From assembly GCF_947179165.1 (NCBI RefSeq), contig NC_077237.1, positions 11,460,735-11,524,734 on the forward strand: 64,000 nucleotides of DNA. Direction: 5' to 3'. Positions 15,482-43,350 of the stretch are shown one piece after another. This DNA is from Solanum dulcamara (taxonomy: Eukaryota; Streptophyta; Magnoliopsida; Solanales; Solanaceae). Position numbers and translations under genes: made by a program. The first letter of the stretch is position 1. Each line of letters starts with the position of its first letter. A model generated the notes under the pieces. It made no database searches. It had not been told where the DNA came from and saw only the letters and a program-made list of their open reading frames with translations.

Positions 15482-15489
15482 TATAAATA
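15482..15489 (+). promoter_or_regulatory. TATA box of hairpin unit 1
   Basis: TATAAATA, 115 bp before the hairpin stem. Two ACGTGAG motifs lie upstream at 15421 and 15464. The same arrangement recurs in the other units. Confidence 0.5.
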
Positions 15490-15596
15490 GTTTCCAAGAA
15501 GAGAGAAAGCAAATAAAAAAGAATTAGGAAATAAGAAACTTTTGTAATTAAACCTTTAATTCAATGTATTTGATATTTATTGTCTTTAAGGAAGAA

Positions 15597-15770
15597 TGTG
15601 ATGATATGAGATAGTAGGTGAAAGTCGTCCTGCTCAAAAAGCTTATAATTGTGGATTTCTTTCTGTAAAATAAATCTTTTTTTGTGTGTGGACTTCTTTC
15701 GATTGATCAGAATGACAATTATAAGCTTTTTTAGCAGGCCAATTTTCACCTTCTCTCTCAAGTAGTCACA
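15597..15770 (+). ncRNA. Candidate hairpin RNA, copy 1
   Basis: Arms 15597-15652 and 15715-15770 (56 nt each) pair at 46 of 56 positions by Watson-Crick pairing, plus some G-U pairs, around a 62-nt loop. The best-paired part is at the loop end (AAAGCTTATAATTGT). It lies 115 bp after a TATA box. I did not recognise a known microRNA family. A miniature transposon could also give such a stem; transcription is untested. Confidence 0.42.
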
Positions 15771-15780
15771 GTCTTTTTCA

Positions 15781-16700
15781 TAAGTGTCAAAATTTCACCT
15801 AAACTATCACATTTGTTTGAGAAACACACCTCATTGGTGTGTGTAATACACTCTTTCTACTCTCTCTCTCTCTTTTGAAAAAACTTTGTCACATGGCATT
15901 ACACATGGATAAAATATTTTCTCACCCTCTCCACCACCTCCCCCCCCCTCCCCACAATCCCCCGTCCTTTTATTTTTTTTACATTTCTTTTATAAAATAT
16001 TTTTAAAAAATCACACTTCACCTCCTCCCCCACTACTTCCTAAAAAATATTATTATTTTTATTTTTTTAAAAAAATAAATTATACCCACCCCATCTAACC
16101 TTCCTCTCTTTTAATTTATTTTTTTTTACATTTTTCTCATTTCGTGTTAGATTTGTACATGTATTTTTGGAAAATATTTTTTTCTACTTGTGTACCAAAT
16201 ATAGCAGAAATAAAAGTCTTGCGACAAGTAAAAAGTACTTTCCTAAAATCATATGTATATATATCTAGCACAAAATAAGAAACAAATTTGAAAGCGGAGG
16301 GGCTAGGTGGGGCGGGGTAGAATTTATATTTAAAAAATAAAAATAAAACTAAAAAAATTGGAGGGGGGGGGGGGGTATGGTGAGAGGAAGTGATGGAGTG
16401 GGAGAAGAAAATATTTTATATTTTTTGGGGGGTACAGTAATATTTTAATATTTAATTTTAACTAATTCTAATAATTTATTTAATTTTTGTTTTTATCCAT
16501 GTGGAGTGTGATGTCACAAATTTTTTTTACATGAAAGAGAGAGTGCAGTAAACATACAGAGTGGAATAAAAGAGAGAGGTATATTTCTCAAACTAAAAAG
16601 TGATAGTTTAGGTATAGTTTAGATATGAAATTCACACTCCCAATAGTTTAAGTATGAAACTCAAAAAAAGGTATTGTTTAGGTGTGTTTTTGACACTTTA
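15781..16700. mobile_element. Foldback element / large MITE
   Basis: About 920 bp with long imperfect inverted repeats. The ends are TAAGTGTCAAAA and, inverted, TAAAGTGTCAAAA, both followed by a CACCTAAAC block. Inner parts also mirror each other, such as CATGGATAAAA versus TTTTATCCATG and a C-rich tract versus a G-rich tract. It is absent from the other array units at the same point, directly after the hairpin, so it is an insertion. No coding sequence. Confidence 0.72.
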
Positions 16701-17749
16701 TCTTTAAAATTATCAAAATACATTGAATAAAAAGGTTATCGAGAAAAGTTTCTTGATGGAACTTTTATCAAGAATTAGAACTGCACTCTTGCAAAAATAA
16801 TTTACTTAATATAGAGGGAGTATTAATTACATTCAATTTATATGTCCTACTTTTTGAGTTGATTTATTTTCTTTAAAAAACACTTTTTTATATTTTTCTT
16901 TAACATCTCACATTATATCTTTAAGATTTAAAGATTTTTAAATATTCTAATATATTATTGATAATGTGTATTTAAAATTATAAAATTCAAAAGTCTCACC
17001 CATTCCATAAAATTTTGTACTCAAGACACATAAAATAAAACGAAAAGCCCATATTTATTCATGTTCATAGTTACTACTCGATTCGCTCTAATTTATTTAT
17101 TTATTTGTTTATTTTAAAAATAAAGTTCCTTTCATTTTTTGACAAATCTTTAAATAATTTTTTACATGACATATTTAAAATATTAAAGGACATTTTGATC
17201 TAATTTCATATTTTTAGCTTAAATATACTTAAACTTGTAACGAATAGCCCGTCGTTATTAAAAATATATGCGGTAAAGGTATACGAATCTCTTTCGTTAT
17301 AAGACTAGGATCAATTCCTTGGTATGCAAGTGCATTAGTTATGAGTTGAGGTCGTACTATGCTCCTATCTCAAAGTTGAGTTGAAAGTGCATTTCCGATT
17401 TAGTTTTGGACTTGAGTTCAAACTAGGGTCAAATTCAAACGACTGTATCTCTCAGCCTATGAAGATTTAGGTGTCCCATGACCTATCTAATTAAATATCT
17501 ATGATTCTTCTTTCTAAAGCCACCGAATTTACCTCATTCGGAGTTTGGAGTAAAAAGTTATACCAATTTTATTGAGCACTGTTTGTGCTAGGTTGTCGGA
17601 GCGGGATTTGGCCGCCGGAGATTCGACGGGACGGAAGTTAAAAAGGGCGTATTTTTATTATCCCATTCTTTTCCTAACTGCCAAAATATATGAGGGTTGC
17701 CCTAGAAACCTAAGAGGCTGTTCCAGGCTTGGATAGAAGGGAAAAAGAG

Positions 17750-19921: not shown

Positions 19922-19957
19922 AAGAGATTCCTAGTGCGAGGAAGGCTACAATCCATG

Positions 19958-22460
19958 TGTCACGACCCAAAAACTAAGGTCATGGTAGCACACATCCCAA
20001 TACCCAACCTGATATGGAAGCCTAAAAGTAAAACTTATATGAGACTCCCAAAGGAGAAATCAGACCACAAAAATAATAAAAAGGTGGACACAAATAAAAT
20101 ATCTCAAAACTTGGCTTCATAAGTGTAAAGATAATCTAACACAATGATAGAATTTGATATATATCATCAGTCTTCGAATAATAGTAAAGACTGAAAAGAA
20201 AAGATAGAACTAATGGCAGTCCAAATTCGAAGACCTCACCACTAATATGAACAGTAAGACATCCACTAGAAAGAGATTAGGTGCCGCGCAGAATACCTTG
20301 ACTAGGATCTGCATCAAAAAGGGACACAGAAGTAGGGGTGAGTACAATCCATATGTACTTAGTAGGTTGGACCGACTGAGTATAAAAAATTAATCAAACC
20401 TATGTAATAAACTAAGGAACATTCTCTACCTGCACGCAGAAAAGTCCTACTCCGGCATCAGTGTCGCCAGTTTATATAAAACGCCGCAAGTAAAGTAAAC
20501 ACATAAGAACCGTTCAATATCATATAATATCATATAAGGTAAATAATCCAAGATGCAATGCAATGCAATGGGATGCTGAAATGATGTAGTGGTATGGTGG
20601 AATCAAGACTATCGCACAGCCTATCGTATGCACCTACCGAGCTGTTCTACTAAGTAGGACCCATAGGGTTCTTACAGACCATATACCTCATCACACTATC
20701 AATGTATCAATTATCTCACCACCCATCTCGTGGCCAAAGACTTATGATACTAATATCTCATTCGCTTGCCATCTAACTCGTGGTGAAGGATATAAAAAAG
20801 TATCATATTTTCTTTCTTAAGAAGAATTTCCATAGTTCTCAACTTCCCAATGATCAATGATATAATGAATGAGGATGAATGAATTCATAACACATAAGGC
20901 ATGAAGGCATTTATCAACTCCACATGTAGTACAAGGTTCAAAATTCTCAAAACTTAACCTAAACATGATATTCACCCTCAATAGACAGTAATGACAAGGA
21001 AATTCCTCAAATTAAGAATACGAATGAATAACCATTCCAAAGTCTATAACATAAGAATGACTAATTAGCCCATCCCAATCTCAAAGAAAAATAGTCAAAC
21101 CTACCTCAATTACCAAAACCGCACATGAATACTCCTACTGGATGAGCAATCCTCGAATTCAATGCCCGAAATGATAACCCACTATCAAGAATGAAACATA
21201 TACATCACAAGGAGTCCAATGACACCCATATTGCAAGTATTCAGAACCGAGGGTAAAATGGTTCAAAAATTGCTTAAAATTTAAAAAGTGCAAAATTGGA
21301 ATTTTATTTAAAAATCATGTTTTACATATCGAGGAGAGTTCGTGATTGAAAAAACCATAAAAATTGATGAAGAATCAAGTTAAATTAGCAAATCTTTTAT
21401 TTTAAATTTAGAAAGAAAACCCCTCAAAAACCCATTTGAAATCAAGACTTTTAGGAGAGTTAGGAAGACAAAATTAATGAAAATCGATAAAGATTAAATA
21501 GATAGACTCACCTAAATGATTTCCCTCTGAAAATCTCTCCAAGAATCATCTCTGCAATACAACCCAAGAAAAATTAGTGGAATCTGAAAAATGGGCTAAT
21601 TTCACGACTAAACACTATTTCAGGTAAAAATGACCTTCGCGATCGCAGATCATTACCCTCTGCGATCGTTGAAGCACAAAGGGGATGCTCTTCGTGAAAG
21701 CAGGCATCACTACCATGATCGTGAAGCTCAAAAGGATGGACCATCGTGAAGGCGGAACCCAAGGTCATGAATATGAAGGGTTAAGATCCATGCACCAGAA
21801 CCAGAAATTTTCCAAACTCCACATATCCGATTGGACCCTCAAAATTCATTTGGAATCTGTCCACACAAACCATCTATGTACACCTACTAAATTTGATGTT
21901 CCGGACTCAATGGAGCCATCGGAATTCAAATTTGAGGTCTCCTTGATTCAAAACTTGATAAGTCGTAACTAAACTAAATTTAAACCTCAAAAGACCAAAA
22001 TGAGCTCGGGACTCCAAAAATTATAATGAAGCCGCTTCTTGGCCTAAATCACCCATTGAAACCAAAGGAATCATCAATAATACAATTTGAGTTTCCAAAC
22101 TCGAATTGTTGACCAATGTCAAACTTAACTTATTTAAAACAAAACTTTTCAGCTTAGGACCTCAGTTTCACGAAACAACTCCGAATACAAAAACGAAGAC
22201 ACTCATAGACCAATTTCCATATTTCAGAGCTGATAAAACTGACAAAATTTCATTCTAAGACCCGTAGCTCCGGTTGGTATGAAAAATCACTTTTGAGCAA
22301 CTTAAACATTTAAACTAAAAAACTCGCACAATTCATAATCTTTTAAAAATTTACAAAAACCAACCACTCAAACTAATCAATTAACACTAGAGAAACTAAC
22401 ATGAGGGTTAAAATGGCAATTTCCCAAGAATTTCCGAAAATAACTTTCAAGGTCATTACA
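19958..22460 (-). mobile_element. Solo LTR, TSD CCATG/CTATG
   Basis: Starts TGTCACGACCC and ends AAGGTCATTACA. Flanks are CCATG (19953-19957) and CTATG (22461-22465), a duplication with one change. It belongs to the same broad family as 37892-40911 and the LTR at 45572-52257. No coding region. Confidence 0.82.
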
Positions 22461-24338
22461 CTATGGATTTTAGACCCGCCTCCATAGTTTCTTCCTATGG
22501 AAGTCAGGGATCATCCTATAATCCTTTTACGACTTCTTGGAATCTAGGTTTGCTAGGTTTTCTCAATTGATTTGTTATAAATTGGTTCACATTGCTTAAT
22601 ATAATGTAGATTGACGAGAGATTTCATGCCTAGGCCTTTGGGTACGGAGTCTAGATGGTTAACTGATTGTGAGTTGATAGTCACGCCCCGAGAGGGTACC
22701 CTAGGCATGGCCGACACTCAGAAACCATCTTTGGATTCCGAGAGAACCACTTGGTCTCATTATTCATTTGTTCATCAGTGGAAGACTTAAGAATACTAAT
22801 GTGGGCTTGTCATCATCAACACCAAAGGAAAAATAGATAATTCTTAGAAGAAGTAGTTTTGTAAGGAGAACTACTCTGATTACATCATCAAACTCTGTCT
22901 ATGAATCCTCTAATACTCTTAGATAGTGTCAATGACATGTTCATGGCTATCTTAAAAGAAACATACTCAAAAATAATAAAAGGATAGAGAGTTCCTCCGA
23001 ATATAAGAAGGACTCACCAAATAGCTAAAAAATAATGATCTTTAATGATGCGCCTGTTGAGGATCTCTAACACCTGTATCTGCATCATAAAACGATGCAG
23101 GTATAATGACGTTAGTACGTGGAATATACGAGTATGTAAAATGGCAGGAAGGTAAGAACATATATCAAGAAATTCCTCTAAAAAAAACTCAGCTTAGAAC
23201 TAAACATCATCTCAACATTAATATGTAATGCAAATTTAAAATAATAATAAGAAATACTTACTCAGTTGGGAGTTTCTCTAACCGATAACCATCACTTATG
23301 AGCTAGCGATGATATAACGAAGCGATGTCGTTGCCACATTCATCCAATACCTTGCTAGAGTAAAGAACATCACCATCTTGGATCCACTCATCAAAGTCCT
23401 CTTTTTGGGACTTAATAGGCATAGCCTCCATCCTACGCTGGCTACGTATTTCTGGGGTTTGAGTCAATTAAACTCTTACCCAACTTGGTGCTCAATACTA
23501 CTCTCAAATTATGTGCTCATATTAATCTCATCATCTAGTCTCATTGGACTTTAATTTAAATCATCAAACTCATCTCATTTCATGTTCATCAATCATTATA
23601 CTTCCAAAAACATCATTTACATCTCATCAAAATATCTTGCTCAAAATATCATTTTCTCAAATTCATTCAAATTCAACTCTTTTACTCTTTCAAAACTCAA
23701 TAAAATACATATATAGTATTAATTCATATAACTCTCTTTTTATCAATAAAAATAATAAAAAGCCAACATCTTTACTCAAAACATATGTAAAAATATTCAT
23801 GAACATCAAATCAATTAGGATTCATGGGAAAGTAGCCATGAACAATAATTCCAATAATATGAGAGATAATAATAATAATAATAATATTAATGCATAAATA
23901 TATCTAACTCAATAGAAGAAGAATTAATTCATTTAGAATTTAAGATTTGGATAAAACTCAACTATAACTCAATTATAAATAATTTAAATATTGGGTGCAT
24001 GGACGAACTAAATTCGATGCTATCAAAGCCTTACATACCTTAAATCCGAAGCTTTACTCTGAATTGGAACACTCTTGGACCCCTAGCCTTTTGTTCTCAC
24101 CGGAGCATTTTGTGTACTATCCGGAGTATAAAAATCACCGAAGTACTATTTTTATACTATTAAAACTAAAACTATATTTGAGAATGAGTAAATAAGTATA
24201 TAGAGAGAAGAGTTGCTTAAGAAAGCTTGATGAATAAAATGAGAAAATAAGGTGGTTATTTATAAGTGGGAAAGAGAGACCTAACAATAAATAAAATAAT
24301 TATAAAGAAAAATCTGAAAATTTAATGGAATATATTGA

Positions 24339-26493
24339 TGTCACGCCCCGAGAGGGTACCCTAGGCGTGGCCGGCACTCAGAAACCATCTCTGGCTTCCG
24401 AGAGAACCACTTGGTCTCATTACTCATTTGTTCATCAGCGGAAGACTTAATAATACTAATGTGGGATTGTCATAATCAAAGGAAAAATAGATAATTCTTA
24501 GAAGAAGTAGTTTCTAAGGAGAACCACTCCGATTACATCATCAGACTCTGTCTATGAAGCCTCTAATACTCTTAGATGGTGCCAATGACATGTCCATGGC
24601 TACCTCAAAAGAAACATCACACTCAACAATAATAAAAGGATAAAGAGTTCCTTCGAATACAAGAAAGACTCACCAAATAGCTGAAAAGAAATGATCTTCA
24701 ACGATGCGCCTGTTGAGGATCTCTAACACCTGTATCTGCATCATAAAACGATGCAGGTCGAATGACGTTAGTACATGGAATGTACGAGTATGTAAAATGG
24801 CAGGAAGGTAAGGACAGATATCAAGAAACTCCTCTCAAGAAAACTCAGCTCAGAACTCAACATCATCTCAACATGAATATGTAATGCAAGTTTAAAATAT
24901 AATAATAAAAATAATAGTAATAAGCAATGCTTACTCAGTTGGGAGTTTCTCTAACCGACAACCATCACTTATGAGCTAGCGATGATACAACGAAGCGATG
25001 TCGTTGCCACATCCATCCAATACCTTGTCAGGGTAAAGGACATCACCATCTTGGATCCATTCATCAAAGTCCTCTTTTTGGGACTTAAGAGGCATAGCCT
25101 CCATCCTACGCTGGCTACGTAGTTCTGGGGTTTGAGTCAATTAAACTCTTACCCAACTCGGTGCTCAATACTACTCCCAAAATATGTGCTCATATTAAAC
25201 TCATCATCTAGTCTCATTGGACTTTAATTTAAATCATCAAACTCATCTCATTTCATGTTCATCAATCATTATACTTCCAAAAACATCATTTACATCTCAT
25301 CAAAATATCTTGCTCAAAATATCATTTTCTCAAATTCATTCAAATTCAACTCTTTTACTCTTTCAAAACTCAATAAAATACATATATAGTATTAATTCAT
25401 ATAACTCTCTTTTTATCAATAAAAATAATAAAAAGCCAACATCTTTACTCAAAACATATGTAAAAATATTCATGAACATCAAATCAATTAGGATTCATGG
25501 GAAAGTAGCCATGAACAATAATTCCAATAATATGAGAGATAACAATAATAATAATATTAATGCATAAATATATCAAACTCAATAGAAGAAGAATTAATTC
25601 ATCTAGAATTCAAGATTTGAATAAAACTCAACTATAACTCAATTATAATAAATTTAAATATTGGATGCATGGACGAACTCAATCCAATGCTATGAAAGCC
25701 TTACATACCTTAAATCCGAAGGTTTACTCCGAATTGGAATACTCTTGGATCCCTAGCCTTTTCTTCTCGCCGGAGCATTTTGTGTACTACCCGGAGTATA
25801 AGAATAACCGGAGTAGTATTTTTATACTACTAAAACTAAAACTATATTTGAGAAGAAGTATATAGAGAGAAGAAATGCTTAGGAAAGCTTGATGAATAAA
25901 ATGAGGAAATAAGGTGGGTATTTATAGGTGGGAAAGAGGGACCTAACAATAAATAAAATAATTATAAAGAAAAATCTGAAAATTTAATGGAATATATTGA
26001 TGTCATGGATGATGTTAAATGGAGGACAATTTATGTCATGCATGATGTCAAATGCATCTAGATGTTTCCATGGTAGGTAAGATGAGTTCTTTTTAACAGA
26101 ATACTCATTTTCGATGCTACTTTTGAATAAGATAAAATCCTTATTAGGATTTGGTTTCTTCATAAGAGTTGTAGATATGGAAGTTTAGTTTCATATCGTT
26201 CAAGAATCAACCAATTTGGATCAACCTACAGTGAGATATGTATTTTCTTCTATCAACACTCAATTCCGTCACAGCACTATATCGTGCAAAGATTAATTTA
26301 TTTGACCTACTTATACTCCGAATTTGAAGTTATGTTCTTCATGAAAGTTGTAGGTAAGGATGTTGTGATTATCCAGAAATTTGAATCACCTAATTTGGAC
26401 CAAAATATGAAAAGTTATTCCCAAAATACAGAGGCTATATTATTTTTGTCGAGAATTGAAATACCGACATACAATATTTTAGGGGTTGTTACA
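24339..26493 (-). repeat. 3' LTR (left copy)
   Basis: Reads TGTCACGCCCC to GGGTTGTTACA on the + strand, 2155 bp, same length as the partner at 31532-33686. Confidence 0.93.
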
Positions 26494-26496
26494 ATA

Positions 26497-26506
26497 TCTC
26501 CCTCTT
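26497..26506 (-). other. Polypurine tract
   Basis: On the minus strand AAGAGGGAGA lies three bases before the 3' LTR. It is the expected plus-strand primer. Confidence 0.75.
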
Positions 26507-26623
26507 GGGATCATTCGTCCTCGAATGAAGATGAAAATAGGAGACATAAAGAATGAATATCATCAATACATCAACTCCAATACTCAAATGATTAATGACT
26601 CAAACTCAAGAATAAGCATCGAC

Positions 26624-29600
26624 TCAAAGGTAGAAGTAAGGAATATTACCTTGAATATCGTCATCAGAAGGCATAAATAGATGAGGATAGTTAGCCTTCA
26701 TATCTTCTTCAGCTTCCCATGTAGCCTTTTCAACAAATTGATTTCGCCATAGGACTTTGACAGATGCCACTTCCTTAGTTCTTAATTTGCGAACCTGACG
26801 ATCAAGAATTTGAACTGGAATCTCTTCATAACTCAAACTCTCTTTCACCCCAATGCTCTCAGCTGGGACAACAAGTGAAGGATCTCCCAAACACTTCTTA
26901 AGCATAGAGATATGAAACACGGGATGAATAGCAGCTAATTCTGGAGGCAACTCCAATTCATAGGCTACGTTACCTACCCTCCTCATAATCTGATAAGGAC
27001 CAATGTAGCGGGGACTAAGCTTCCCTTTCTTTCCAAATCTCATCACACCCTTCATGGGTGAAATTTTCAAGTATACCCAATCGTACACTTCGAACTCTAA
27101 ATCTCTTCTTCTAACATCAGTGTAGGATTTTTGGCGACTTTGAGCAGTCCTCAACCTCTCTTGTATGGTTTTCACCTTCTCCATAGCTTGGTGAACCAAG
27201 TCTGGTCCAATCAACTCAGCTTCACCAACTTCAAACCAACCAATTGGTGATCTACATCTCCTCCCATACAGAGCTTCATAAGGAGCCATTTGAATACTCG
27301 AATGGAAACTATTATTGTATGCAAACTCAATAAGAGGTAAATGATCATCCCAATTACCTTTGAAGTCAATGACACAGGCTCTTAACATATCCTCCAAAGT
27401 CTGTATCGTACACTCTGCCTGGCCATCTGTTTGCGGATGAAAAGCAGTACTAAGGTTCACTCTTGAACCCAAGCCCTTCTGAAATGACTTCCAAAACTGA
27501 GCAGTAAATTGACCTCCCCTATTAGAGATGATAGACAAAGGAACTCCATGCAGTCTAACAATCTCTCTAAGATACAGTTTGGCACAATCCTCTGCAGTGT
27601 TCGTAGTCTTAACCGGCAAGAAATGGGCCGATTTGGTCATCCTATCCACAATCACCCAAATAGAGTCATATTGTTTGCGGGTTCGTGGTAAACCGGTAAT
27701 GAAGTCTATATTGATCATTTCCCACTTCCATTCCGGTATCTCTATATTCTGAGCCACTCCACAAGGCCTTTGGTGCTCAACTTTAACTTGTTGGCAATTT
27801 GGGCACTTGGACACAAACTCTGCTATATCTCTCTTCATTCCACTCCACCAGTATACTTCTCTCAAGTCATGATACATCTTTGTTGAACCTGGATGGATGG
27901 AATACTTAGAATTATGGGCTTCTTTCATGATTCTCTCCCTAATACTATCAACACTTGGAACACATAATCTTTCTTGATATCTCAACACTCCATCTCCCCC
28001 TTTGGTAAAAGCCATTACCTTCTGCTTGTGAACCTCATCCTTCAGTTGAAGAAGAATAGGGTCCTGATCTTGCTTTTCTTTCACCTCTGCAACTAGAGAT
28101 GATTCGGCTCCATTTCGTACTATTGTACCACCCTTACTAGAGTTAATAAGTTGAACTCCCAAACGCGCAAGTCTATGCACTTCCTTTGCCAACTCCTTCT
28201 TTTCCTCTTCCACATGAGTTGTACTCCCCATAGATAACCTGCTAAGAGCATCAGCAACTACATTTGCTTTACCTGGGTGGTAGAGAATGCTCATGTCATA
28301 ATCCTTGAGCAACTCTAGCAATCTTCTCTGCCTCAAATTCAGCTCCTTCTGGCTGAATACATATTGTAAGCTCTTATGGTCTGTGAACACATCCACATGT
28401 ACACCATAAAGATAGTGACGCCAGATCTTAAGAGCAAATACCACAGCTGCCAACTCAAGGTCATGAGTGGGGTAGTTTCTCTCATGAGTCTTAAGCTGCC
28501 TGGAGGCATAGGCAATGACCTTACCTTTCTGCATCAATACACATCCCAACCCAACTCTTGAAGCATCACAATAGGTTACAAAACCATCCGTTCCTTCGGG
28601 TAGGGATAGTACTGGAGCAGTAGTCAATCTAGCTTTCAACTCTTGGAAACTTTTCTCACAAGCATCAGACCATTGAAACTTAGCCTTCTTCTGAGTCAGC
28701 TTAGTCAATGGTGAGGATATGGATGAAAATCCCTCAACAAACCTCCTGTAGTAACCAGCTAAACCTAAGAAACTCCTTATGTCGGTTGGAGAGGTGGGTC
28801 GGGGCCAGTTCTTAACTGCCTCAATCTTTTGAGTATCAACTTGGATTTCATCCCCAGATATAATATGACCTAGAAATGCTACAGACTCAAGCCAAAACTC
28901 ACACTTTGAAAACTTAGCATACAACTCCTTCTCCTTAAGAGTTTGAAGGACAATCCTAAGGTGATTAGCATGCTCACTCTTACTTCTAGAGTAGACCAAA
29001 ATATCATCGATGAAGACAATTACAAACGTATCTAGGTATGGCTTGAATACTCGGTTTATGAGGTCCATAAAAGCTGCTGGAGCATTTGTCAATCCAAAGG
29101 ACATAACAAGAAACTCAAAATGACCATAGCGGGTTCGAAAAGCCGTCTTCGGGATGTCACATTCTCTCACTTTCAACTGGTGATAGCCTGATCTGAGGTC
29201 TATCTTAGAGAAACATGTGGCACCCTGAAGTTGGTCAAATAAATCATCTATTCTGGGGAGAGGGTACTTATTTTTAATGGTGACCTTATTTAGTTGTCGG
29301 TAATCAATGCACATTCTAAGGGACCCATCTTTCTTTCGTACGAATAGGACAGGAGCGCCCAAGGGTGAGACACTTGGCCTAATAAACCCCTTATCTAGGA
29401 GGTCTTTCAGTTGTTCTTTCAACTCTTTCAACTCAGTAGGAGCCATCCTATAAGGAGGAATGGAGATAGGTTGTGTATCAGGAAGGATATCAATACCAAA
29501 GTTTATCTCTCTATCAGGAGGAATTCCGGGTAGATCCTCAGGAAAGACTTCAGGAAACTCATTCACAATGGGAACTGACTCAAGAGATGGAGTCTGATCA

Positions 29601-29872
29601 TTAATATTTTTGACTCGAACTATATGATATATACATCCCTTAGAGATTAATTTTCTGGCCTTAAGGTAGGAAATAAATTTACCCCTAGGCACTATAGAAT
29701 TCCCCTTCCACTCTAAGATAGGCTCGTTTGGAAATTGAAACTTGACAATTCGGGTCCTACAATCAACCGAAGCATAACAAGAATAAAGCCAGTCCATACC
29801 AAGAATCACATCAAAATCAACCATGTCCAACTCAACTAAGTCAGCCATGGTATCCCTATGATAGATTGACAC
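26624..29872 (-). CDS. Gypsy pol: end of protease, RT, RNase H, integrase, chromodomain-like tail
   Basis: An open stretch of 1082 codons, part of a gag-pol polyprotein; its first codon is GTG, so this is not a true start. Residues ~10-30 (VILGMDWL) end the protease. Reverse transcriptase spans ~130-310 with FIDD at 287-290. RNase H ([11 protein letters not shown] to ADALSRL) is at ~430-550. Integrase has an HHCC zinc region at ~640-690 and a core at ~705-830. The tail contains VKVLWRNQ and [11 protein letters not shown], a chromodomain-like block. In the integrase the second catalytic Asp of the D,D,E triad is Asn784 (SNRGGQF instead of the usual SDRG). This is a one-base G-to-A change that probably kills strand transfer. 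The stop is at 26624-26626. Confidence 0.92.
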
Positions 29873-29893
29873 AGTACAATTTCTATAGACCCT

Positions 29894-31515: not shown

Positions 31516-31527
31516 GCTCTGATACCA
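31516..31527 (-). other. Primer-binding site, initiator tRNA-Met
   Basis: On the minus strand TGGTATCAGAGC begins four bases after the 5' LTR end, a perfect match to the usual plant initiator-Met site. Confidence 0.9.
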
Positions 31528-31531
31528 AGTT

Positions 31532-33686
31532 TGTCACGCCCCGAGAGGGTACCCTAGGCGTGGCCGGCACTCAGAAACCATCTCTGGCTTCCGAGAGAAC
31601 CACTTGGTCTCATTACTCATTTGTTCATCAGCGGAAGACTTAATAATACTAATGTGGGATTGTCATAATCAAAGGAAAAATAGATAATTCTTAGAAGAAG
31701 TAGTTTCTAAGGAGAACTACTCCGATTACATCATCAGACTCTATCTATGAAGCCTCTAATACTCTTAGATGGTGCCAATGACATGTCCATGGCTACCTCA
31801 AAAGAAACATCACACTCAACAATAATAAAAGGATAAGGAGTTCCTTCGAATACAAGAAGGACTCACCAAATAGCTGAAAAGAAATGATCTTCAACGATGC
31901 GCCTGTTGAGGATCTCTAACACCTGTATCTGCATCATAAAACGATGCAGGTCGAATGACGTCAGTACGTGGAATGTACGAGTATGTAAAATGGCAGGAAG
32001 GTAAGGACAGATATCAAGAAACTCCTCTCAAGAAAACTCAGCTCAGAACTCAACACCATCTCAACATGAATATGTAATGCAAGTTTAAAATATAATAATA
32101 AAAATAATAGTAATAAGCAATGCTTACTCAGTTGGGAGTTTCTCTAACCGACAACCATCACTTATGAGCTAGCGATGATACAACGAAGCGATGTCGTTGC
32201 CACATCCATCCAATACCTTGTCAGGGTAAAGGACATCACCATCTTGGATCCATTCATCAAAGTCCTCTTTTTGGGACTTAAGAGGCATAGCCTCCATCCT
32301 ACGCTGGCTACGTAGTTCTGGGGTTTGAGTCAATTAAACTCTTACCCAACTCGGTGCTCAATACTACTCCCAAAATATGTGCTCATATTAAACTCATCAT
32401 CTAGTCTCATTGGACTTTAATTTAAATCATCAAACTCATCTCATTTCATGTTCATCAATCATTATACTTCCAAAAACATCATTTACATCTCATCAAAATA
32501 TCTTGCTCAAAATATCATTTTCTCAAATTCATTCAAATTCAACTCTTTTACTCTTTCAAAACTCAATAAAATACATATATAGTATTAATTCATATAACTC
32601 TCTTTTTATCAATAAAAATAATAAAAAGCCAACATCTTTACTCAAAATATATGTAAAAATATTCATGAACATCAAATCAATTAGGATTCATGGGAAAGTA
32701 GCCATGAACAATAATTCCAATAATATGAGAGATAACAATAATAATAATATTAATGCATAAATATATCAAACTCAATAGAAGAAGAATTAATTTATCTAGA
32801 ATTCAAGATTTGAATAAAACTCAACTATAACTCAATTATAATAAATTTAAATATTGGGTGCATGGACGAACTCAATCCAATGCTATGAAAGCCTTACATA
32901 CCTTAAATCCGAAGGTTTACTCCGAATTGGAATACTCTTGGATCCCTAGCCTTTTCTTCTCGCCGGAGCGTTTTGTGTACTACCCGGAGTATAAGAATAA
33001 CCGGAGTAGTATTTTTATACTACTAAAACTAAAACTATATTTGAGAAGAAGTATATAGAGAGAAGAAATGCTTAGGAAAGCTTGATGAATAAAATGAGGA
33101 AATAAGGTGGGTATTTATAGGTGGGAAAGAGGGACCTAACAATAAATAAAATAATTATAAAGAAAAATCTGAAAATTTAATGGAATATATTGATGTCATG
33201 GATGATGTTAAATGGAGGACAATTTATGTCATGCATGATGTCAAATGCATCTAGATGTTTCCATGGTAGGTAAGATGAGTTCTTTTTAACAGAATACTCA
33301 TTTTCGATGCTACTTTTGAATAAGATAAATTCCTTATTAGGATTTGGTTTCTTCATAAGAGTTGTAGATATGGAAGTCTAGTTTCATATCGTTCAAGAAT
33401 CAACCAATTTGGATCAACCTACAGTGAGATATGTATTTTCTTCTATCAACACTCAATTCCGTCACAGCACTATATCGTGCAAAGATTAATTTATTTGACC
33501 TACTTATACTCCGAATTTGAAGTTATGTTCTTCATGAAAGTTGTAGGTAAGGATGTTGTAATTATCCAGAAATTTGAATCACCTAATTTGGACCAACCTA
33601 TGAAAAGTTATGCCCAAAATACAGAGGCTGTATTATTTTTGTCGAGAATTGAAATACCGACATACAACATTTTAGGGGTTGTTACA
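31532..33686 (-). repeat. 5' LTR (right copy)
   Basis: 2155 bp, starts TGTCACGCCCC and ends GGTTGTTACA on the + strand. It is followed by the ATTGA target duplication. Confidence 0.93.
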
Positions 33687-34861
33687 ATTGATGTCATGGG
33701 TAATGTCAAATGGAGGACTATTGATGTCATGAGTGATGTCTAATGTATGTAGATTTTGTCATGGTAGGTGAAATGAGTTATCTTTGACAGAATACTTTTT
33801 TTCAGAGCTATGTTTGAATAAGATAAATTCCTTATTAGGATTTGGTATCTCATAAGAATTGTAGATATAGAAGTCTAGTTTCATGTTGTTTAAGAATAAA
33901 ACAATTTGGAGCATCCTACAGTGAGATATGAATTTTCTTCTACAAATACTTCATTTCGTCACAGCACACTGTCTTACAATAATTAATTTATTTGACCTAC
34001 TTAACCTATGAAAATTAACATATGGTATTCACAAAAGTTGTAGGTACAGATATTTTGGTTACTCCGAAATTTGGTTCACCTAATTTGGATCATCCTATGA
34101 AAAGTTATGCCGAAAATATAGAGGTTGTATCATTTTCATCGAGAATTAAAATACCGACATACAAAGTTTTAGGAGTTGTTACATGATATTTAGAGTAGGA
34201 ATGTATATTGTGGATCATGATTATTATGTGACTAGTGATAAAGGTCTAATCTTTGAATGTTAACCTTGGTGAAAACTGTTTAGAAGGCCAATGACCCTGC
34301 GGAATTAAATGTAGACTATTGCTAGGTTGTTAGGAGATCTTGAGACCTGTGGGTTATGAGTTATTGATGTATATAAAAGGATGTGATTATACTGATAATT
34401 GTGTGAGTTTATGGTGATTATTTCTTGAAAATTACTTGAGTAATGTGAATCATGAAATAAAAGGGTGAATGTGTATGAATTAGTGTTGATAGATCTCATG
34501 CCATGAACCTATTTGATTACTTATGGCTTTAGGTTATGATTTAGTCTATATCATAGAGAGACCCTTAATAGTGACTGAGTAATGTTGTGATGTTTACCAT
34601 GCATTTAATTATTTCGGTTGGATGATTGATATGCTGTTGTTATGGATCTATAATCCTAAGACTGTAAAATCCATAATCTTGAACTTTCTCTACCCAAAAG
34701 TGATACCTTAAATAAAGAAGGCTTGATAAATATTGTTAATGAAGGGAAAGATAGAATGAAACTAATGAAATGACTATTTGTGACCAATTACATGCAATGA
34801 GCCTAATTACTTGATTGTGCAAGTATGTAAACTATTCATTATGGACTATGATTGTGATATT

Positions 34862-35015
34862 GGATCGGGTGTCGCGTTCTGACATATATATTGGATCAAG
34901 TGTTACGTTCTGACACATTTATTGGATCAGGTGTCGTCTTTCGATACATATATTGGATTGGGTGTCACGTTCTGACACATACTAACTATTGAATTGGGTG
35001 TCACGCTGACACACT
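34862..35015 (+). repeat. ~40-bp tandem repeats inside outer LTR
   Basis: About five degenerate copies of TTGGATCGGGTGTCGCGTTC plus TGACACATATA. They lie in the fourth piece of the LTR at 17236-36266 and include short inverted TGTC/GACA pairs. Confidence 0.75.
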
Positions 35016-36964
35016 AGCAGTTTGAGTATGGGTTCCATGAGAGAATCATTGTGTGGCTATTATCTGTGAATTGATCTTGACTATATGTATGATGATAGAG
35101 AAATTGACTCTATTATAATTGAGCATGCCCATCTTGTGTAATAATTGATATGAAAGAACTAAAAGTCCAAGTGTTACCATGTTGACTGTTGTAGCTGAGA
35201 TTTACTTTGTGAATCTTATATTGCTCTGAAATGGTAAATTGATAATGTGTTCATGTATATGCCTGTTTGGATTATGTTATGGTTTCTAGACTTGTTCTCA
35301 TCGTAGGAATAAGATTGTGGGTAAATAAGTGGAAAGCAATCAATACATTGTTAAGTGAAATTAGTGACTTAAAGTTCCATATTGCTGATGTCCTGTGGGC
35401 ACATATGTTAAAGGGGGGATATGAAGAGAATTCAGAGCTTCTGCCTCTGGACAGGCCGCTCTGGCGGGAGGAATCCCTCTAGAGCGAGATGGACAGAGTG
35501 GGATAGGTCCCGCCATATCGGGCTAGTGCGGTTAGAATATGAGCCTTAGCCCACCTAAATATTTCCCTCTTTTGAGTGAGATGCTAATTTTTCTAGGGAC
35601 AGATGTTGGTGTGAAAGCTAAAGGTAGTAGACTAGTTAGACAAAGTTAATGAGCCCCGTAGTTCAAGAACTCATCTATGTGATAAAAGGGCTAGGCCTTG
35701 ATCTGGATTAAAGTTGGCAGCGGACCAACTATAAGGGATGCGAGTAGACTTGAACGACTTTAATGAGGTTAATGGGAATGACAAGAGTTTTTGCATAAAG
35801 GTTGCCGAGTGTATTTCCTTAGGAGCATGCTTTTTCTTGTTGATAATTTTATATTATGCGGTGGGTATCGAGTTGACCGATGATGCCTACCAGTAAGTAT
35901 TGTTTGTACTGATACTACTATTATTATGCCACTTGGCAAAGTCTGGTTACAAGGTCAGTGATGTTTCATAGGTGAAGACGAAGATGAGTCTCCAACAACT
36001 TCTACTCTTCATTCCTTATGGTGAGAGTTATGTCTTATTTTTATTTATACTTTGTACCTTTAGAAAGATCTTGTACCTGTTTAGACTAGTATAATTGGGG
36101 GTGTTAGAATTTTTCTTGTAATAAACCTTAGAGTTTAATACATAATTATGGTGTATTCTTGACTTTTCAGGCTATTATTAAACTTTCGCATGATATTTTG
36201 TAAGGATTCTCCTATCTAGGTGTTAGAGTATGTGTCCGCATGGCCTGGTGGGTTGGGTCGTGAAAAAAACTTACACAAAAGGTGGCAGATGAGTTGAAAG
36301 GAGTTGGGCGTCCCTTTTTGGAAGGAACAAGTATCATGGAAGTTCCCCAGTGCATGCTATTGAAGCATTGGAATCATACACTATAGGAACTACTTTTGTT
36401 AGGAAAATTAATGTATGTAAATTGACAATGCAGGCCAATCATTGGCTTTTAACTATGTACTGAGACCATCCCGAAACGATCCAAATTTGAAACGAAAAAT
36501 TTAATATAATATATCGTACCAAAAAATATGATAATTCGTAATGGATTGATGGTTTATCTGATAAGAAAATTGAGTAATTCTCCCTCGCATCGATAAATTA
36601 TTGATTATAAAATTTTAATATGTTCATCAATTGTTAATCCAATAACCTAATACCAATTAGTCAATAAATCAAATTTACGATTCAATTATCGGTTATGATT
36701 TGATTTTGAACAGTCCAAATTGAAATAATAATAACGTAAGTTTGGTGGAAGGTGGGAATGGAAAACTAGTCATAATTTGAATTTCAAAAGTGTTGGTTAA
36801 AATTGTAAAACAACGTGTTAAGGCTCTGATGCATGTCCCTCGTGAGTTTTGAATTTTTCATTGATGATAAATCAATGCATTGGGACCCCCTAACACATTC
36901 CCAACGTGAGGTCTATTGGACAACAAAAGCGTGTGTTGCGCGTGCAAGTGAGGTATGTTTTCAC

Positions 36965-36972
36965 TATAAATA
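36965..36972 (+). promoter_or_regulatory. TATA box of hairpin unit 2
   Basis: TATAAATA, 118 bp before the stem. One intact upstream CAACGTGAGGTC is present (36902-36913); the second box is degenerate. Confidence 0.48.
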
Positions 36973-37082
36973 GTTCCTAAGTAAAGCGAAAGGAAATAAA
37001 AGAGAGAGTAGGAAATAAGAAGCTTTTGTAGTTAAACCTTCAATTCAATGTATTTTGATATTTATTCATTTTTAAGGAAGAT

Positions 37083-37233
37083 TATGATGATCTGAGAGAG
37101 CATGTGAAAGCTACCCTGCTCAAAAAGTTTATAATTGTGGACTTCTTTCAATATATTTCTATCGATTGATCAGAATGAAAATTATAAGTTTTTTAAGCAG
37201 ATCAGTTTCCACCTTCTCTCTCAAGCCGTCATA
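37083..37233 (+). ncRNA. Candidate hairpin RNA, copy 2
   Basis: Arms 37083-37138 and 37178-37233, 56 nt each, with a 39-nt loop. Pairing is imperfect but extends along the arm with several G-U pairs. Stem position 12 is a G-C pair. Confidence 0.42.
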
Positions 37234-37891
37234 GTCTTTCTTGAAAATAAATAAAATTATCAAAATACAATGAATTAAAGGGTTAACAACAAAAGTTTCT
37301 TGATGGAACTTTTATCAAGAATTAGAACTGCACTCGTCCAAACATAATTTACTTAATATGGAAGGAGTATTAATTACATTCAAATTATATGTTCTACCTT
37401 TTGAGTTGATTTATTTTCTTTTTTAAAAATCATTTTTTTATATTTTTTTAACATCTCACATTATATCTTTAAGATTTTAAAATATTCTAATATATTATTA
37501 ATTTTTTGATTTAAAATTATAAAATTCAAAAGTCTCACCCTTCCATAAAATTTTGTACTCAAGACACATGAAAAGCATGTATTTATCTATGATCTCATAG
37601 TTACTGCACCATTCGTTCTAATTTATTTATTTATTTTTTCATTTTAAAATGAAAATTTCTTTTCATATTTTGATAAATCTTTAAATAGTTTTTCACATGA
37701 CATATTTAAAAGATTAAAACACATTTTAATCTATTATCATATTTTTAGCTTAAAAATATTCACATTTACGTTTAAACTTGCACAAAAGGTGGCAGATGTG
37801 CTAACAAAGGAAAGAGTTGGGTGCCCCTTTTTGGAAGTAACAAGTATTCTGGAAGTACACCCTAGGAACTACATTTGTTAGTAAAATAAAT

Positions 37892-40800
37892 TGTCACGAT
37901 CTGAAAACCGGGCATGATGATACTTGTCCTTTTTCACCAGACAAGTCAGCCTATACCCAATAAATGCAGAAGGTAAAAGAGGAAGACAATTTAGATAAAT
38001 AAATATAGATAAAGCGGTAATTTAGTCAACTACAAAATTCCCCACAGACTGGTTGTCACATGTATAAGTCTTCTAATTACAAGATATGAAATAAATGTAA
38101 GTCTCAATCTTTGTCTCTCGAATAGAACAAAGTAGTGAGTAAAGAGGAATAGGAAAGATGGTCGGCATCAACCACTACCTCTCGAATCACCTCAGAAGTC
38201 TCGGGTGAAAATAAGAAAAGCTGGGTCACTTTCCGAGCTTAGAACCTACACAAGTGTAGTTAGCAAAGAGTGAGTACCAACAAAATGGTACCCAACAAGT
38301 AAACAACTAAGACTAAGCAAAGCTAGTAAAATACACATACTCCTGCCACACCATCCAACGCTCAGACTACAACTTGCACAGAAATCAGCCCAGTCTAATA
38401 GTTCTAACAGCACAGTATTCATATACCTCAAGAACAATACAATTCAATTCGCAAGGAAATCAGCACAATCAATAATACAGATCAGGGGTAAAACCATCCA
38501 CAATAGCAAAAGATGTATGATGTAACGAAATGCAATGCAATGTCATATATCGTGATGCATGTCTGCCCTAATGATACACATCCGCTGATCACCTCAGACC
38601 AAAACCCATGGGGGCCTCACATAGACCATGTATCTGTGGGAAGATACCTCAGCTATAACATCCGCCGGAAAAGAACTCAGCCACCGAAAAGGACCTCGGC
38701 CAATCACCTCGACCGGTAGAAACCTTAGTCCCAATATCCAGTATCTCACTCATATCACTTTCTCAGTCATCACAGATAAGTATATGCACAAGTAATGAAT
38801 GAAAATAGAATGAATATTCACATATAATGTCATATAGTCCACAATCACCCAATTAATCAAATATCATATCAAAAACATATAAATATATCTAAATATTCAC
38901 CAACAAGCACAATGTTCTATCACATTGAACACCACATGTCATCTCATCTCAATTTTTCCATTTATTAGTTTCATTTGAATATCAATAGTTCTTAACACCA
39001 CTTTCTATCAATCCTCAGCACATAAAACATGAATACATGATCCTACAAGCTTTAGAATAGGTTTAGAAATTCACTTGCCTCGAATCCGATCTCACTAGTC
39101 CAAAACTTGAGCCTTGCCCTTACTTTGGCGCTTCGAATCAAGATAATTTATTCAAATATGCAATTACAATAAGAATACAAGTGTCTAACGATACGCAAAT
39201 CATCATTTTTGAAAAGCGGGCCGAATCTGACTCGAAACACCCAAAAAATTCAATTTCGTAAATGAATAGAAAATCTGGAAACTTTTACATGAAAAAGATC
39301 CTTGAAGTATTTTGAAACTAATGTTGAAAAACAATTTGAATTTGGAGTTGAAATCTGCCCTCAAACACCAGTTTTACTAAAATTCATGTTCTTGAAAAAA
39401 CTCTTAATATTCGGATCCAAAACCTCGACTCAAATTCAAAATATTTCTTGAAAAATATCTTACCCATATTTAGAAAAATTCAAATATGAAATTTCATAAA
39501 AAATGGAGTTAAAATCGACCTTGAAATCCTCAATTTAGCAAACTTTAACTTTACCAAAAAAATCCAAATTATACGCGATAAATATAATGAAAATAATCAA
39601 TGAATCAACAAATTTGTGACAAAATCAAGTACCCATAACAAAAAGATCATAGATATACCACCTTTTTTGATAAAAAATGGAGTCCAAATCAATAAAATCT
39701 CAATTTCCCCCAAGAAATTTATGGATAAGGAAATAAAACTAGATTAAGAAACCATGAGAAAATATCGAATTAAGGTTTGTATACTAACCCCATATTATAT
39801 CGAGAAGAAATCCGCAAGAATCACTCCATTCCGAGCTCTAGAACTCCCGATATGCTCAATATACCAAATGAACACAGTCTGAAATTTTAAATATCAACAA
39901 CAATAGTGTTTTCGCACCAGATCAACAGCTAATTCACTAAAAAGGCCGTAACTTCCTCATATTATAGAGAAATGACCCTATTCTTTCTTCTAAATGTCTT
40001 AATTAATGATACAGACCTGCTCATTCAATTGAAACTCAATTCTGAACTCATTTGCCCAGTCAAATATTATTTTTGCTCGGTAAACAATTATTTCTAATTT
40101 TGTGATAAAAGTCCAATCTCGGCTTAACGAAAATGCACCAAACTTTGCACATAATTTCTATAATTCATGCTCAAAAATTTTAGAAGTTTTGGAATTATTT
40201 TTCGATCTTTAAAACTAATAATGAACTTTTTAGTTGCTACAATTTGCTGAAATAACGCCAAAGCACCCAGAATCTTAAAAACTCACCCAAAACTCATCCA
40301 AAACTTTTCGAACACAAACCAAATATGCTACTAGCTTGAAAATGATATTTCAGACTCAATGGAATAAATGAAATTTGAATTCAAGGTCTCCTTGGCCCGA
40401 AACTCAAAAAGTCGCAGCTAAACTAATTTAGGTCTCCAAAATACCAAAACGAGCTCGGGACTTCCAAAAATTACAACAAGGCCTTTTCTAGCGTTAAAAT
40501 CACCTTCCAAAACCATTGAATCATCAGAATTTCAATCCGAGCACCCGAACCCAAATGTTGACCAAAGTCAAACTTGGATCAAACTTTAACTCAATTTTCA
40601 ACTTGACTTAAATTCCACGTTTCAACTCCAAATCTGATTCCGACAACTCTCCTAGATCAATTTTCACATTTCAGAACTGATGAAATCGATGGAATCTCAT
40701 TCCGAGAATCGAACTCCAAATAACTTTGAAACTCAAAATTTGACATCATAAGCCTTTAAAACTCATTTTTCTAGTAAAACCTCAACTTTTCATAAGATTT

Positions 40801-40911
40801 TTAAAAACCAACTTTTAAACCCAAGATAAAATGACTCGGGGCAACTGACAGGAGGGGTAAAATGGTAATTTTATAAAAACAATATCGAAAATGACCTTCA
40901 GGGTCATTACA
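37892..40911 (-). mobile_element. Solo LTR, TSD TAAAT
   Basis: Starts TGTCACGATCTG and ends GGGTCATTACA, 3020 bp. Perfect TAAAT duplications lie at 37887-37891 and 40912-40916. It is inserted in array unit 3, whose sequence continues on both sides. It is the longest clean example of the family also seen at 5659-6953, 19958-22460 and 45572-52257. Confidence 0.9.
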
Positions 40912-41501
40912 TAAATGTACGTAATATTGACAATGCAGGCCAATCATCGGCCTTTAACTATGTACTGGGACCATCCCGAAACGATCCAAATTTGAAATGA
41001 AAAATTTAATATAATATGTCTTACTTACCAAAAACAAAATGATAATTCTTAATGTATTAATGGTTTATCCGATAAGAAAATTGAGTAATTCGCCCTCGCA
41101 TAAAATTGAGTAATTCGCCTTCGCATCAATAAATTGTTGATAATAAAATTTTAATATGTTCATCAATTGTTAATCCAATAACCTAATACCAATTAGTCAA
41201 TAAATAAAATTTATAATTCAATTATCGATTATGATTTGATTTTGAACCTTCCAAATTGAAACAATAATAACGTTAGTTTGGTGCAAGGTGGGAGTGGAAA
41301 ACTAGTCAAAATTTGAATTTCAAAAGTGTTAGTTAAAATTGTAAAACAACGTGTTAAGACTTCAATGCATTTTCCTCGTGAGTTTTAAATTTTTTATTGA
41401 TGATAAATCAATGCACTGGGACCCCCTAACACATGCCCAGCGTGAGATCTATTGGACAACAAAAGCGTGTGTTGTGCGTGCAACATGAGGTATGTTTTCA
41501 C

Positions 41502-41509
41502 TATAAATA
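41502..41509 (+). promoter_or_regulatory. TATA box of hairpin unit 3
   Basis: TATAAATA, 116 bp before the stem. Confidence 0.48.
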
Positions 41510-41617
41510 GTTCCTAAATAAGAGAAAGGAAATAAAAGAGAGAGTAGGAAATAGAAGCCTTTGTTGATAACCCTTTAATTCAATGTATTTTGATATTTAT
41601 CCATTTTTAAGGAAGAA

Positions 41618-41768
41618 TGTGATGATCTAAGAGAGTAGGTGAAAGCCGTCCTGCTCAAAAAGTTTATAATTGTGGACTTCTTTCAATATATTTCTATCAA
41701 TTGATCAGAATGACAATTATAAGCTTTTTAAGCAGGACAGTTTTTACCTTCTCTCTTAGGCCGTCACA
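41618..41768 (+). ncRNA. Candidate hairpin RNA, copy 3
   Basis: Arms 41618-41673 and 41713-41768 with a 39-nt loop. By eye 47 of 56 positions pair as Watson-Crick and five more as G-U, leaving four mismatches. Stem position 12 is A-U here, where copies 1 and 2 have G-C. This is the strongest fold of the four. Transcription and processing are unproven. Confidence 0.48.
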
Positions 41769-43059
41769 ATCTTTTTTTAAAATAAATAAAATTATCAAAA
41801 TACATTGAATTAAAGGGTTATCAACAAAAGTTTCTTGATGGAACTTTGGCATCCCTAGGCCCGATCATCCAATTCGCTCCAACAGACAGGCATGATTCTG
41901 TAGTCAAAGCAACTTCGACCATCAAGAATTAGAACTGCACTCGTGCAAACATAATTTACTTAATATGGAGGGAGAATTAATTACATTAAAATCATATGTC
42001 CTACTTTTTGAGTTTATTTATTTTCTTTTTAAAACAAAATCACTTTTTTATATTTTTTTAACATCTCACATTATATCTTTCAGATTTTAAAATATTCTAA
42101 TATATTATTAATATTTTATATTTAAAATTATAAAATTCAAAAGTCTAACCCTTCCACAAAACTTTGTACTCAGACACATAAAATAAAAAGAAAAGCATGC
42201 ATTTATCAATGCGTTCATAGTTACTACTCGATTCGTTCTAATTTATTTGTTTTATTTTCATTTTAAAAAGAAAGTTTCTTTTCATATTTTAAAAAATCTT
42301 TAAATAATTTTTCACATGACATATTTAAAAGATTAAAGGACATTTTGATCTACTATCATATTTTAACTTAAAAATACTCATATTTACGTTTAAACTTGCA
42401 AAAAGTTGGCAGATGTGCTGACAAAGGAAAGAGTTGGGCTTCCCTTTTTGGAAGTAACAAGTATTCTAGAAGTACACCCAAGGAACTACATTTGTTAGTA
42501 AAATAAACGTATGTAATATTGACAATGCAGGCCAATCATTGACCTTTAGCTATGTACTAGGAAAATCCCGAAATAATCCGAATTTGAAATGAAAAATTTA
42601 ATATAATATGTCATACTTACCAAAAACAAAATGATAATTCTTAATGGATTGATGGTTTATCCGATAAGAAAATTGAGTAATTCTCCCTCGCATCGATAAA
42701 TTGTTGATTATAAAATTTTAATATGTTCATCAATTGTTAATCCAATAACCTAATACCAATTAGTCAATAAATCAAATTGACGATTTAATTATCGGTTATG
42801 ATTTGATTTTGAACAACCCAAATTGAAATAATGTAAGTTTGGTGCAAGGTGAGAGTGGAAAAGTAGACATTGGAATTTCAAAAGTGTTGGTAAAAATTGT
42901 AAAACAATATGTTAAGGCTCCAATGCAAGTCCCTCGTGAGTTTTGAATTTTTCATTGATGATAAATCAATGCACTGGGACCCCCTAACACATGCCCAACT
43001 TGAGGTTTATTGGACAACAAAACCATGTGTTGCGCGTGCAACGTGATGTATGTTTTCAC

Positions 43060-43067
43060 TATAAATA
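43060..43067 (+). promoter_or_regulatory. TATA box of hairpin unit 4
   Basis: TATAAATA, 117 bp before the stem. Confidence 0.48.
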
Positions 43068-43176
43068 GTTCCTAAGTAAAGAGAAAGAAACTAAAGGAGA
43101 GAGTAGGAAATAAGAAGCTTTGGTAGTTATACCTTCAATTCAATGTATTTGATATTTATCAATTTTTAAGGTAGAA

Positions 43177-43350
43177 TGCGATGATCTGAGAGAGTAGGTG
43201 AAAGTCGTTCTGCTCAAAAAGCTTATATTGTGGACTTCTTTCAATAAAATAATTTTTTTTTGTGTGTGTGCACTTCTTTCGATAGATTAAAATGACAATT
43301 ATAAGCTTTTTTAAGCAGGTCAGTTTTTACCTTCTCTCTTAGGTCGTCAC
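43177..43350 (+). ncRNA. Candidate hairpin RNA, copy 4
   Basis: Arms 43177-43231 and 43295-43350 around a 63-nt loop similar to that of copy 1. One base is missing from the 5' arm near the loop. Stem position 12 is a G-U pair, intermediate between the G-C and A-U states of the other copies. Confidence 0.42.

Follow-up and report, generated by a model that had tools for sequence, protein, structure and literature searches.

Long hairpins from an inverted founder exon in Solanum dulcamara: a candidate proto-MIRNA family at a drifting stage

Solanum dulcamara, a nightshade, carries on contig NC_077237.1 (assembly GCF_947179165.1) a group of long hairpins, each standing behind a TATA box, and the question that they raise is what kind of locus they form. 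The window referred to throughout is the whole stretch of DNA analysed, 64,000 nucleotides from positions 11,460,735 to 11,524,734 of the forward strand; it belongs to contig C1 of the genome searched, which comprises 942 Mb in 32 contigs. The original prediction proposed an undescribed hairpin RNA family arranged as a tandem array, and named an amplified miniature inverted-repeat transposable element (MITE) as the main alternative. Our analysis indicates that each hairpin is almost certainly an inverted duplication of one exon of a founder gene, together with the adjoining intron end. The account that we prefer, with a probability of roughly 0.7, is that the hairpins constitute a proto-MIRNA (hairpin small interfering RNA, or hairpin-siRNA) family, a forerunner of microRNA genes, which arose by inverted duplication of this founder exon and is now at a drifting stage.

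The hairpins and their founder exon

Four units lie in the window and, as had been described, each has the motif TATAAATA on the plus strand ahead of a hairpin: at 15482-15489 in copy 1, 36965-36972 in copy 2, 41502-41509 in copy 3 and 43060-43067 in copy 4, with the hairpins as first delimited starting 115, 118, 116 and 117 bp, respectively, after the start of the motif. The pairing reported for copy 3 proved exact, 52 of its 56 stem positions pairing when G-U is allowed, compared with 22-27 after register shifts of 1-2 nt. This 56-nt stem is real but forms only the inner half of a stem about twice as long, which outer arms extend to 37017-37301 in copy 2 (114 predicted pairs), 41553-41836 in copy 3 (124 predicted pairs, -144.8 kcal/mol) and 43112-43417 in copy 4 (119 predicted pairs). 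The base of the stem lies 51-52 nt past the start of TATAAATA. On the plus strand, the 5' and 3' arms occupy 37017-37137 and 37178-37301 in copy 2, and 43112-43233 and 43295-43417 in copy 4; copy 3 has its 5' arm at 41553-41673, its loop at 41674-41712 and its 3' arm at 41713-41836. In copy 1 an insertion at about 15781-16704 has displaced the outer part of the 3' arm to 16705-16754, from where the homologous 3' flank runs on to 17229; the 5' arm (15533-15652) and the inner part of the 3' arm (15715-15780), likewise on the plus strand, remain as a hairpin of 68 pairs. The stability of the long foldback is far above that of shuffled sequence in the four window copies, for which shuffle controls were made (z scores of -7.3 for the inner part of copy 1, -14.4 for copy 2, -21.4 for copy 3 and -14.4 for copy 4; shuffles folding as well, 0/200, 0/200, 0/200 and 0/100 respectively), so that the check by folding bears out the hairpins first proposed. 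Two further copies found on another contig, e1 and e2, were folded without shuffles.

Both arms match, in opposite orientations, a single 120-bp stretch within a cluster of five gene copies on contig C4 (7.73-7.85 Mb), four of which have one orientation and one the other. By alignment, this founder stretch comprises about 60 nt of intron, the last letters of which are TTTTCAG, a complete 60-nt exon and the donor GTAAG. In each of the five founder genes the exon has this same length between the two motifs, and the arms retain founder sequence as far as the donor GT. Hence copy 3 has in its 5' arm a part from the founder intron (41553-41611) followed by a part from the founder exon (41612-41673), and a 3' arm antisense first to the exon and then to the intron; the 5' arm of copy 1 is sense to the founder intron end and exon, the inner part of its 3' arm antisense to the exon. 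When the genome was searched for the founder stretch, the matches were the five C4 genes, five of the six 5' arms and, in the opposite orientation, all or part of each of the six 3' arms, with 77-87% identity in the matched stretches. The remaining 5' arm, that of e1, was found in a separate genome search and is the most diverged, being 72-78% identical to the founders.

In the best-matching founder gene, at 7.774 Mb, the exon encodes EECDDLREKVKASLLKKLTI, which is residues 459-478 of the annotated protein P0106, and versions of this peptide from other gene copies are present in P0020, P0104 and P0137. Since the exon peptides are found in annotated proteins, the exon belongs to predicted mRNAs. 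Parts of these four proteins match C4 stretches at 97-100% (only matches of at least 97% were counted), and the founder exon is free of stops in four of the five genes, that at 7.851 Mb starting with TAA. P0106 has PHD, SWIB and Plus-3 domains above cut-off and no GYF match, while P0020 (7.739 Mb) has no SWIB match; zinc finger CCCH domain-containing protein 44-like and At5g08430-like are among the annotated names of the cluster proteins. When 17 sequences were placed in a tree, the founders (98/94), the 3' arms (99/98) and, weakly, the 5' arms (69/81) each grouped together, and a single inversion before amplification is the simplest way to read this. Judged by this anatomy, the locus is of a known kind, an exon inverted duplication with an intron end, and not a new structural RNA family; the undescribed hairpin RNA family that had been proposed is borne out only in part. 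Inverted duplication of a founder exon is a classical birth route of plant MIRNA and hairpin-siRNA loci.

Units, upstream region and spread

The hairpins sit in paralogous duplicated units of 1.1-1.6 kb each. There are at least six such units in the genome (the genome search scores the best candidates only, making copy numbers lower bounds): four in the window and two on contig C11 near 54.49 Mb, namely e1 at 54,488.6 kb, the 3' arm of which is interrupted, and e2 at 54,496.6 kb, which is complete. The tandem array originally described does exist for copies 2, 3 and 4, which stand head to tail, together with a partial further unit, between 36267 and 43771, but copy 1 lies 21 kb away from it. 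All on the plus strand, the unit with copy 2 covers 36267-37891 and is followed by the start of the next unit, those with copies 3 and 4 cover 40912-42391 and 42392-43487, and the partial unit, without a hairpin, covers 43488-43771. An insertion between units 2 and 3 (37892-40911), running from TGTCACGATC to TCATTACA with TTACA at its end and TAAAT as a 5-bp direct repeat, split the array after it had formed. A similar insertion lies upstream in copy 1 at 13078-15140 (TGTCACGATC to TATTACA, with a 5-bp direct repeat TTAAT), and that which splits the 3' arm of copy 1 (15781-16704, borders approximate) has inverted ends GTGTCAAAA and TTTTTGACAC.

Homology between units is not confined to the hairpins. 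The C1 and C11 loci have two stretches in common, window 11990-13077 (84% identity), where about 1 kb precedes the unit, and window 43592-43940 (89% identity); because flanks are shared beyond the hairpin, even between C1 and C11, the units have spread by tandem and segmental duplication. Homology between aligned units also runs through both hairpin ends, and so no target duplication marks them. It is here that a MITE, or another transposable element folding into a hairpin, has to be weighed. Such an element would explain a hairpin in several copies, and a dispersed repeat is indeed present in the upstream part of the unit (41102-41259). Nevertheless, the genome-wide search for copies yielded six units as a lower bound, all with a linked TATAAATA, and at none of their hairpin ends are there terminal repeats with a target duplication; moreover, the long flanks that the copies have in common outside the hairpin imply that they moved by duplication and not by transposition, and the arms are a gene exon with an intron end. 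A MITE, which the original prediction had made the main alternative, is rejected for the low copy number, the shared flanks and the gene origin of the arms, and we regard it as scarcely credible.

TATAAATA precedes the stem in all six units. We searched the genome with the region upstream of it, scoring the best 40 of 258 candidates, so that further places are possible; the 40 matches were the six units, one split-off part of copy 1 and 33 places elsewhere. These 33 stop by query position 200 (window 41259) and represent a dispersed repeat, the distal upstream part of the unit (41102-41259), most copies of which end near 41247. Of the 40 scored matches, the six units alone contain the proximal upstream region (41260-41501, plus strand), the 240 bp that precede TATAAATA, and the C4 genes match the unit in the arms only. 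Given this distribution, the promoter-like part would not have come with the founder piece. The four TATA boxes of the window are not independent of one another, because the four units are paralogous duplicates. Variability around the motif is low: the 20-nt window 41493-41512 has 1 variable column, the least of 440 windows (those in which all six copies have letters), and the ten counted windows that contain the whole TATAAATA box have 1-5, the commonest value overall being 7. As a sign of a promoter this is suggestive and not decisive. The anatomy of the unit supports a locus that would be able to make a long hairpin RNA behind a TATA box.

Some further features of the units may be recorded. 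A stretch of about 73 bp at window positions of about 41848-41920 is present in the 3' flank of copy 3 only and appears by eye to have more G+C than its surroundings. The unit junctions (36267-36343, 37774-37856, 42392-42460 and 43508-43590) correspond roughly, on our own reading, to the end of a retroelement frame (VADVLTKEGAGRPFLEGTSILEVP), with more distant matches (68-71%) on C4 and C10. A repeat of about 600 bp occurs in four copies with 68-76% identity (6318-6958, 21834-22464, 40312-40911 and 51625-52258), the third of which stops precisely where the 37892-40911 insertion has its right border and may therefore be the end of that type of element.

Target match, pairing and the stage of the family

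The sequence itself shows some 120 bp of a PHD/SWIB/Plus-3 gene twice in opposite orientation, starting roughly 51 nt past a TATA box, and the arm tree points to a single inversion, after which tandem and segmental duplication multiplied the unit to the six copies now known. According to the account that we prefer, RNA polymerase II would start near the base of the stem, and the transcript would fold into a stem of about 110-125 pairs that DICER-LIKE enzymes could cut into 21-24-nt RNAs; those from the 3' arm may guide cleavage or silencing of founder-cluster mRNAs, chiefly that of the gene at C4:7.774 Mb (P0106). The odds that the units now produce small RNAs seem to us about even.

The 3' arms are antisense to the founder mRNA. 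Matches were scored by the usual penalty scheme for plant small-RNA targets, in which a mismatch costs 1 and a G-U pair 0.5, both doubled at positions 2-13, no bulges are allowed and the usual limit is 4 or less. Against the exon at 7.774 Mb, the best 3'-arm 21-mer has a penalty of 2, 3, 2, 2, 2 and 2 in copies 1-4, e1 and e2 respectively, compared with a minimum of 6 for 200 shuffled exons and 10-12.5 for the sense 5' arms. Against the other four founder exons the best penalties per copy range from 2.5 to 6, not every copy reaching 4 or less. Any small RNAs made would be expected still to match the founder.

Where the best site falls is relevant to a more advanced possibility, that of a working young MIRNA family in which one dominant product of 21-22 nt, from the loop-proximal 3' arm at about 41715-41735, regulates the founders. 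Copies 2, 3 and e1 match best at the final 21 nt of the exon, to which the loop-proximal 21-mer of the 3' arm has 1 mismatch in copies 3 and e1, and the 20-nt windows from 41709, 41710 and 41715 have only 2 variable columns. However, copies 4 and e2 are changed at the loop-proximal site, and copies 1, 4 and e2 match better in other parts of the arm, corresponding to sites further upstream in the exon. We consider a single established product of this kind unlikely.

A different claim would be that the stem itself is selected, as in a conserved structural or regulatory RNA family. The compensatory path on which the original prediction relied is there: stem position 12 (column 90) is G-C in copies 1 and 2, A-U in copy 3 and G-U in copy 4. 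Copy 3, furthermore, pairs exceptionally well, and when arms are permuted among the copies only 34 of 720 assignments pair as well as each copy with its own arm. The remaining columns tell otherwise. Over the six copies, 25 pair columns have G-U, 22 have an A-C mismatch and 32 have other mismatches; G-U should clearly exceed A-C if pairing were kept, and their near equality is no sign of it. Own-arm pairing gives 87.16% standard pairs and the mean of the 720 assignments 86.51%, a gain of 0.65 points, and the assignments that do as well rise to 79/720 for the outer half and 202/720 for the exon half. Copy 3 pairs best, but part of its excess is one tract, columns 17-28, where the likeness of its 5' arm to the 3' arms of copies 1-3 suggests conversion between arms. 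An Rfam 15 scan of the window gave no match at gathering score, and the arms originate from a coding exon. The compensatory pair is real, yet it is weak evidence and none of a maintained structure; with no convincing support from column counts or arm permutation, we reject compensatory evolution and a conserved structural RNA, which appears very improbable.

The near equality of G-U and A-C columns and the small own-arm gain also weigh against a proto-MIRNA family, and they do so in company. The arms are not preferentially conserved over the rest of the unit, as those of an established MIRNA gene might be (a supporting and not a strictly defining criterion). Between-copy identity is 86.6% in the outer and 84.7% in the exon part of the 5' arm, and 85.1% in the exon and 90.1% in the outer part of the 3' arm; elsewhere it is 84.8% in the loop, 87.2% in the proximal promoter, 89.3% in the TATA box and leader, 90.0% in the near 3' flank, 85.6% in the far 3' flank (6 pairs) and 80.6% in the distal upstream part. 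Variable columns amount to 42/118 and 29/96 in the arms, 67/216 in the promoter, 13/39 in the loop and 13/49 in the flank. The long stem is uninterrupted in four of the six units and interrupted in two, copy 1 and e1. In the A+T-rich window TATAAATA occurs 18 times where 10.5 would be expected, a count reached by 4 of 100 shuffles. The target match, being a consequence of common origin, is not independent evidence, and both it and the pairing persist by common descent, with no clear sign of selection.

These points could be taken together to mean that the exon inverted duplication is real but that the units are non-coding duplicates, either untranscribed or silenced, which decay neutrally and make no functional RNA. 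Such an inert relic has the same origin as the proto-MIRNA family, and it would account for the lack of a clear excess of pairing-preserving change, for arms that are no more conserved than promoter and near flank, and for the insertions in two of six hairpins. What speaks against it is that TATAAATA is kept in all six units, within the least variable of the 440 windows, and that four of the six retain a long uninterrupted stem; as divergence is modest, these points are weak. We treat an inert relic as a distinct possibility, if not the favoured one. For the proto-MIRNA family, four intact and two interrupted hairpins, an intact target match and no clear sign of selection lead us to place it probably at a drifting stage.

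Related loci, neighbourhood and significance

Foldback loci that arise by inverted duplication of genes begin as makers of mixed siRNAs, according to Fahlgren 2007 (PMC1790633), and later drift to death, are retained against their family of origin or acquire new targets; drifting is described there as perhaps the commonest fate. MIRNA loci of the MIR161/MIR163 type, as described in that source (PMC1790633), likewise have both arms resembling one protein-coding family in opposite orientations well beyond 21 nt, and a transcript antisense to the family of origin, as is predicted here. The nightshade hairpins differ from them in that half of each arm is intron and the founder is a PHD/SWIB/Plus-3 gene. 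Nearly all non-conserved MIRNA families are single genes in that work (PMC1790633), whereas the nightshade locus has six paralogous units. MIR163, which originates from a SABATH/SAMT methyltransferase gene, has a long foldback adjoining a promoter, as the nightshade hairpins may have; in nightshade, by contrast, an internal exon supplied the founder piece, and the proximal upstream region is restricted to the six units among the matches scored. MIR genes derived from MITEs (PMC10004981) also have a fold-back precursor in several copies, but the nightshade hairpins have few copies, gene-derived arms and no terminal repeats with target duplication.

The original prediction had recognised no known microRNA family, and none emerged from our comparisons either. 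In addition to the Rfam result, miR530 was rejected as an identity, its best alignment to the four window hairpins on both strands having 7-9 mismatches of 19. A search of the literature on S. dulcamara microRNA, MIRNA inverted duplication, SWIB/Plus-3 microRNA targets, NERD and ZMP found no description of the hairpin among the matches listed. Exact 12-19-mers searched in papers, a search that left supplementary tables and miRBase outside its scope, gave listed matches with titles on lizard, nematode, human cancer microRNA and bacteria. The 15-mer that matched the papers with bacterial titles we take to be a common intron-retargeting primer.

As regards the surroundings, two cytochrome P450 genes (PF00067), at 9489-11431 and 58875-60809, flank the hairpin array and are 93.8% identical over 1.96 kb. 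Sequence that follows the first P450 gene has a match in the 20 kb of C11 that were compared, but the two genes themselves have none there. A repeat of about 2.2 kb (24339-26495 and 31532-33688, at 99%; a related stretch, 22674-24343, at 92%) lies on either side of a minus-strand Ty3/gypsy element with frames within 26624-30984. An inverted repeat at 56934-57166, with arms of about 70 nt at 80% and a 33-nt spacer, stands just before a stretch (57219-57750) that is repeated at 60665-61200.

The identity of the founder gives the locus its wider interest. In Arabidopsis, ZMP (AT5G63700), a PHD/SWIB/Plus-3 protein, interacts with RNA polymerase IV (Pol IV), and it promotes siRNA production at some loci while keeping Pol IV off others (PMC9699677); NERD domains are treated also elsewhere (PMC13132833). 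The founder protein P0106 shares the PHD/SWIB/Plus-3 set with ZMP, a likeness that concerns the founder and not the hairpin, and domain content only; a protein search with a potato relative returned no Arabidopsis protein among the best 120 of 401 matches. The predicted target class is likewise that of miR530, which is reported to target genes for Plus-3 domain proteins in tomato (PMC6207730), and this gene class may therefore be under small-RNA control elsewhere.

The domain set that the founders have in common with ZMP makes a feedback loop of silencing conceivable. That the six units, as a hairpin-siRNA family, actively down-regulate the C4 PHD/SWIB/Plus-3 cluster with its ZMP-like domain set is nonetheless a long shot. 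If it were true, small RNAs would have come to act as a brake on one component of the plant's own small-RNA machinery, a founder exon being turned against its own cluster. More generally, young MIRNA loci whose founder can still be traced provide the material on which ideas about the origin of small-RNA genes can be tested, and here founder genes, exact exon borders, six paralogues and interrupted hairpins occur in one genome, making birth, amplification and decay datable and testable together. Should the units be active, they would tie a new small-RNA family to a class of genes some of whose members control the production of small RNAs.

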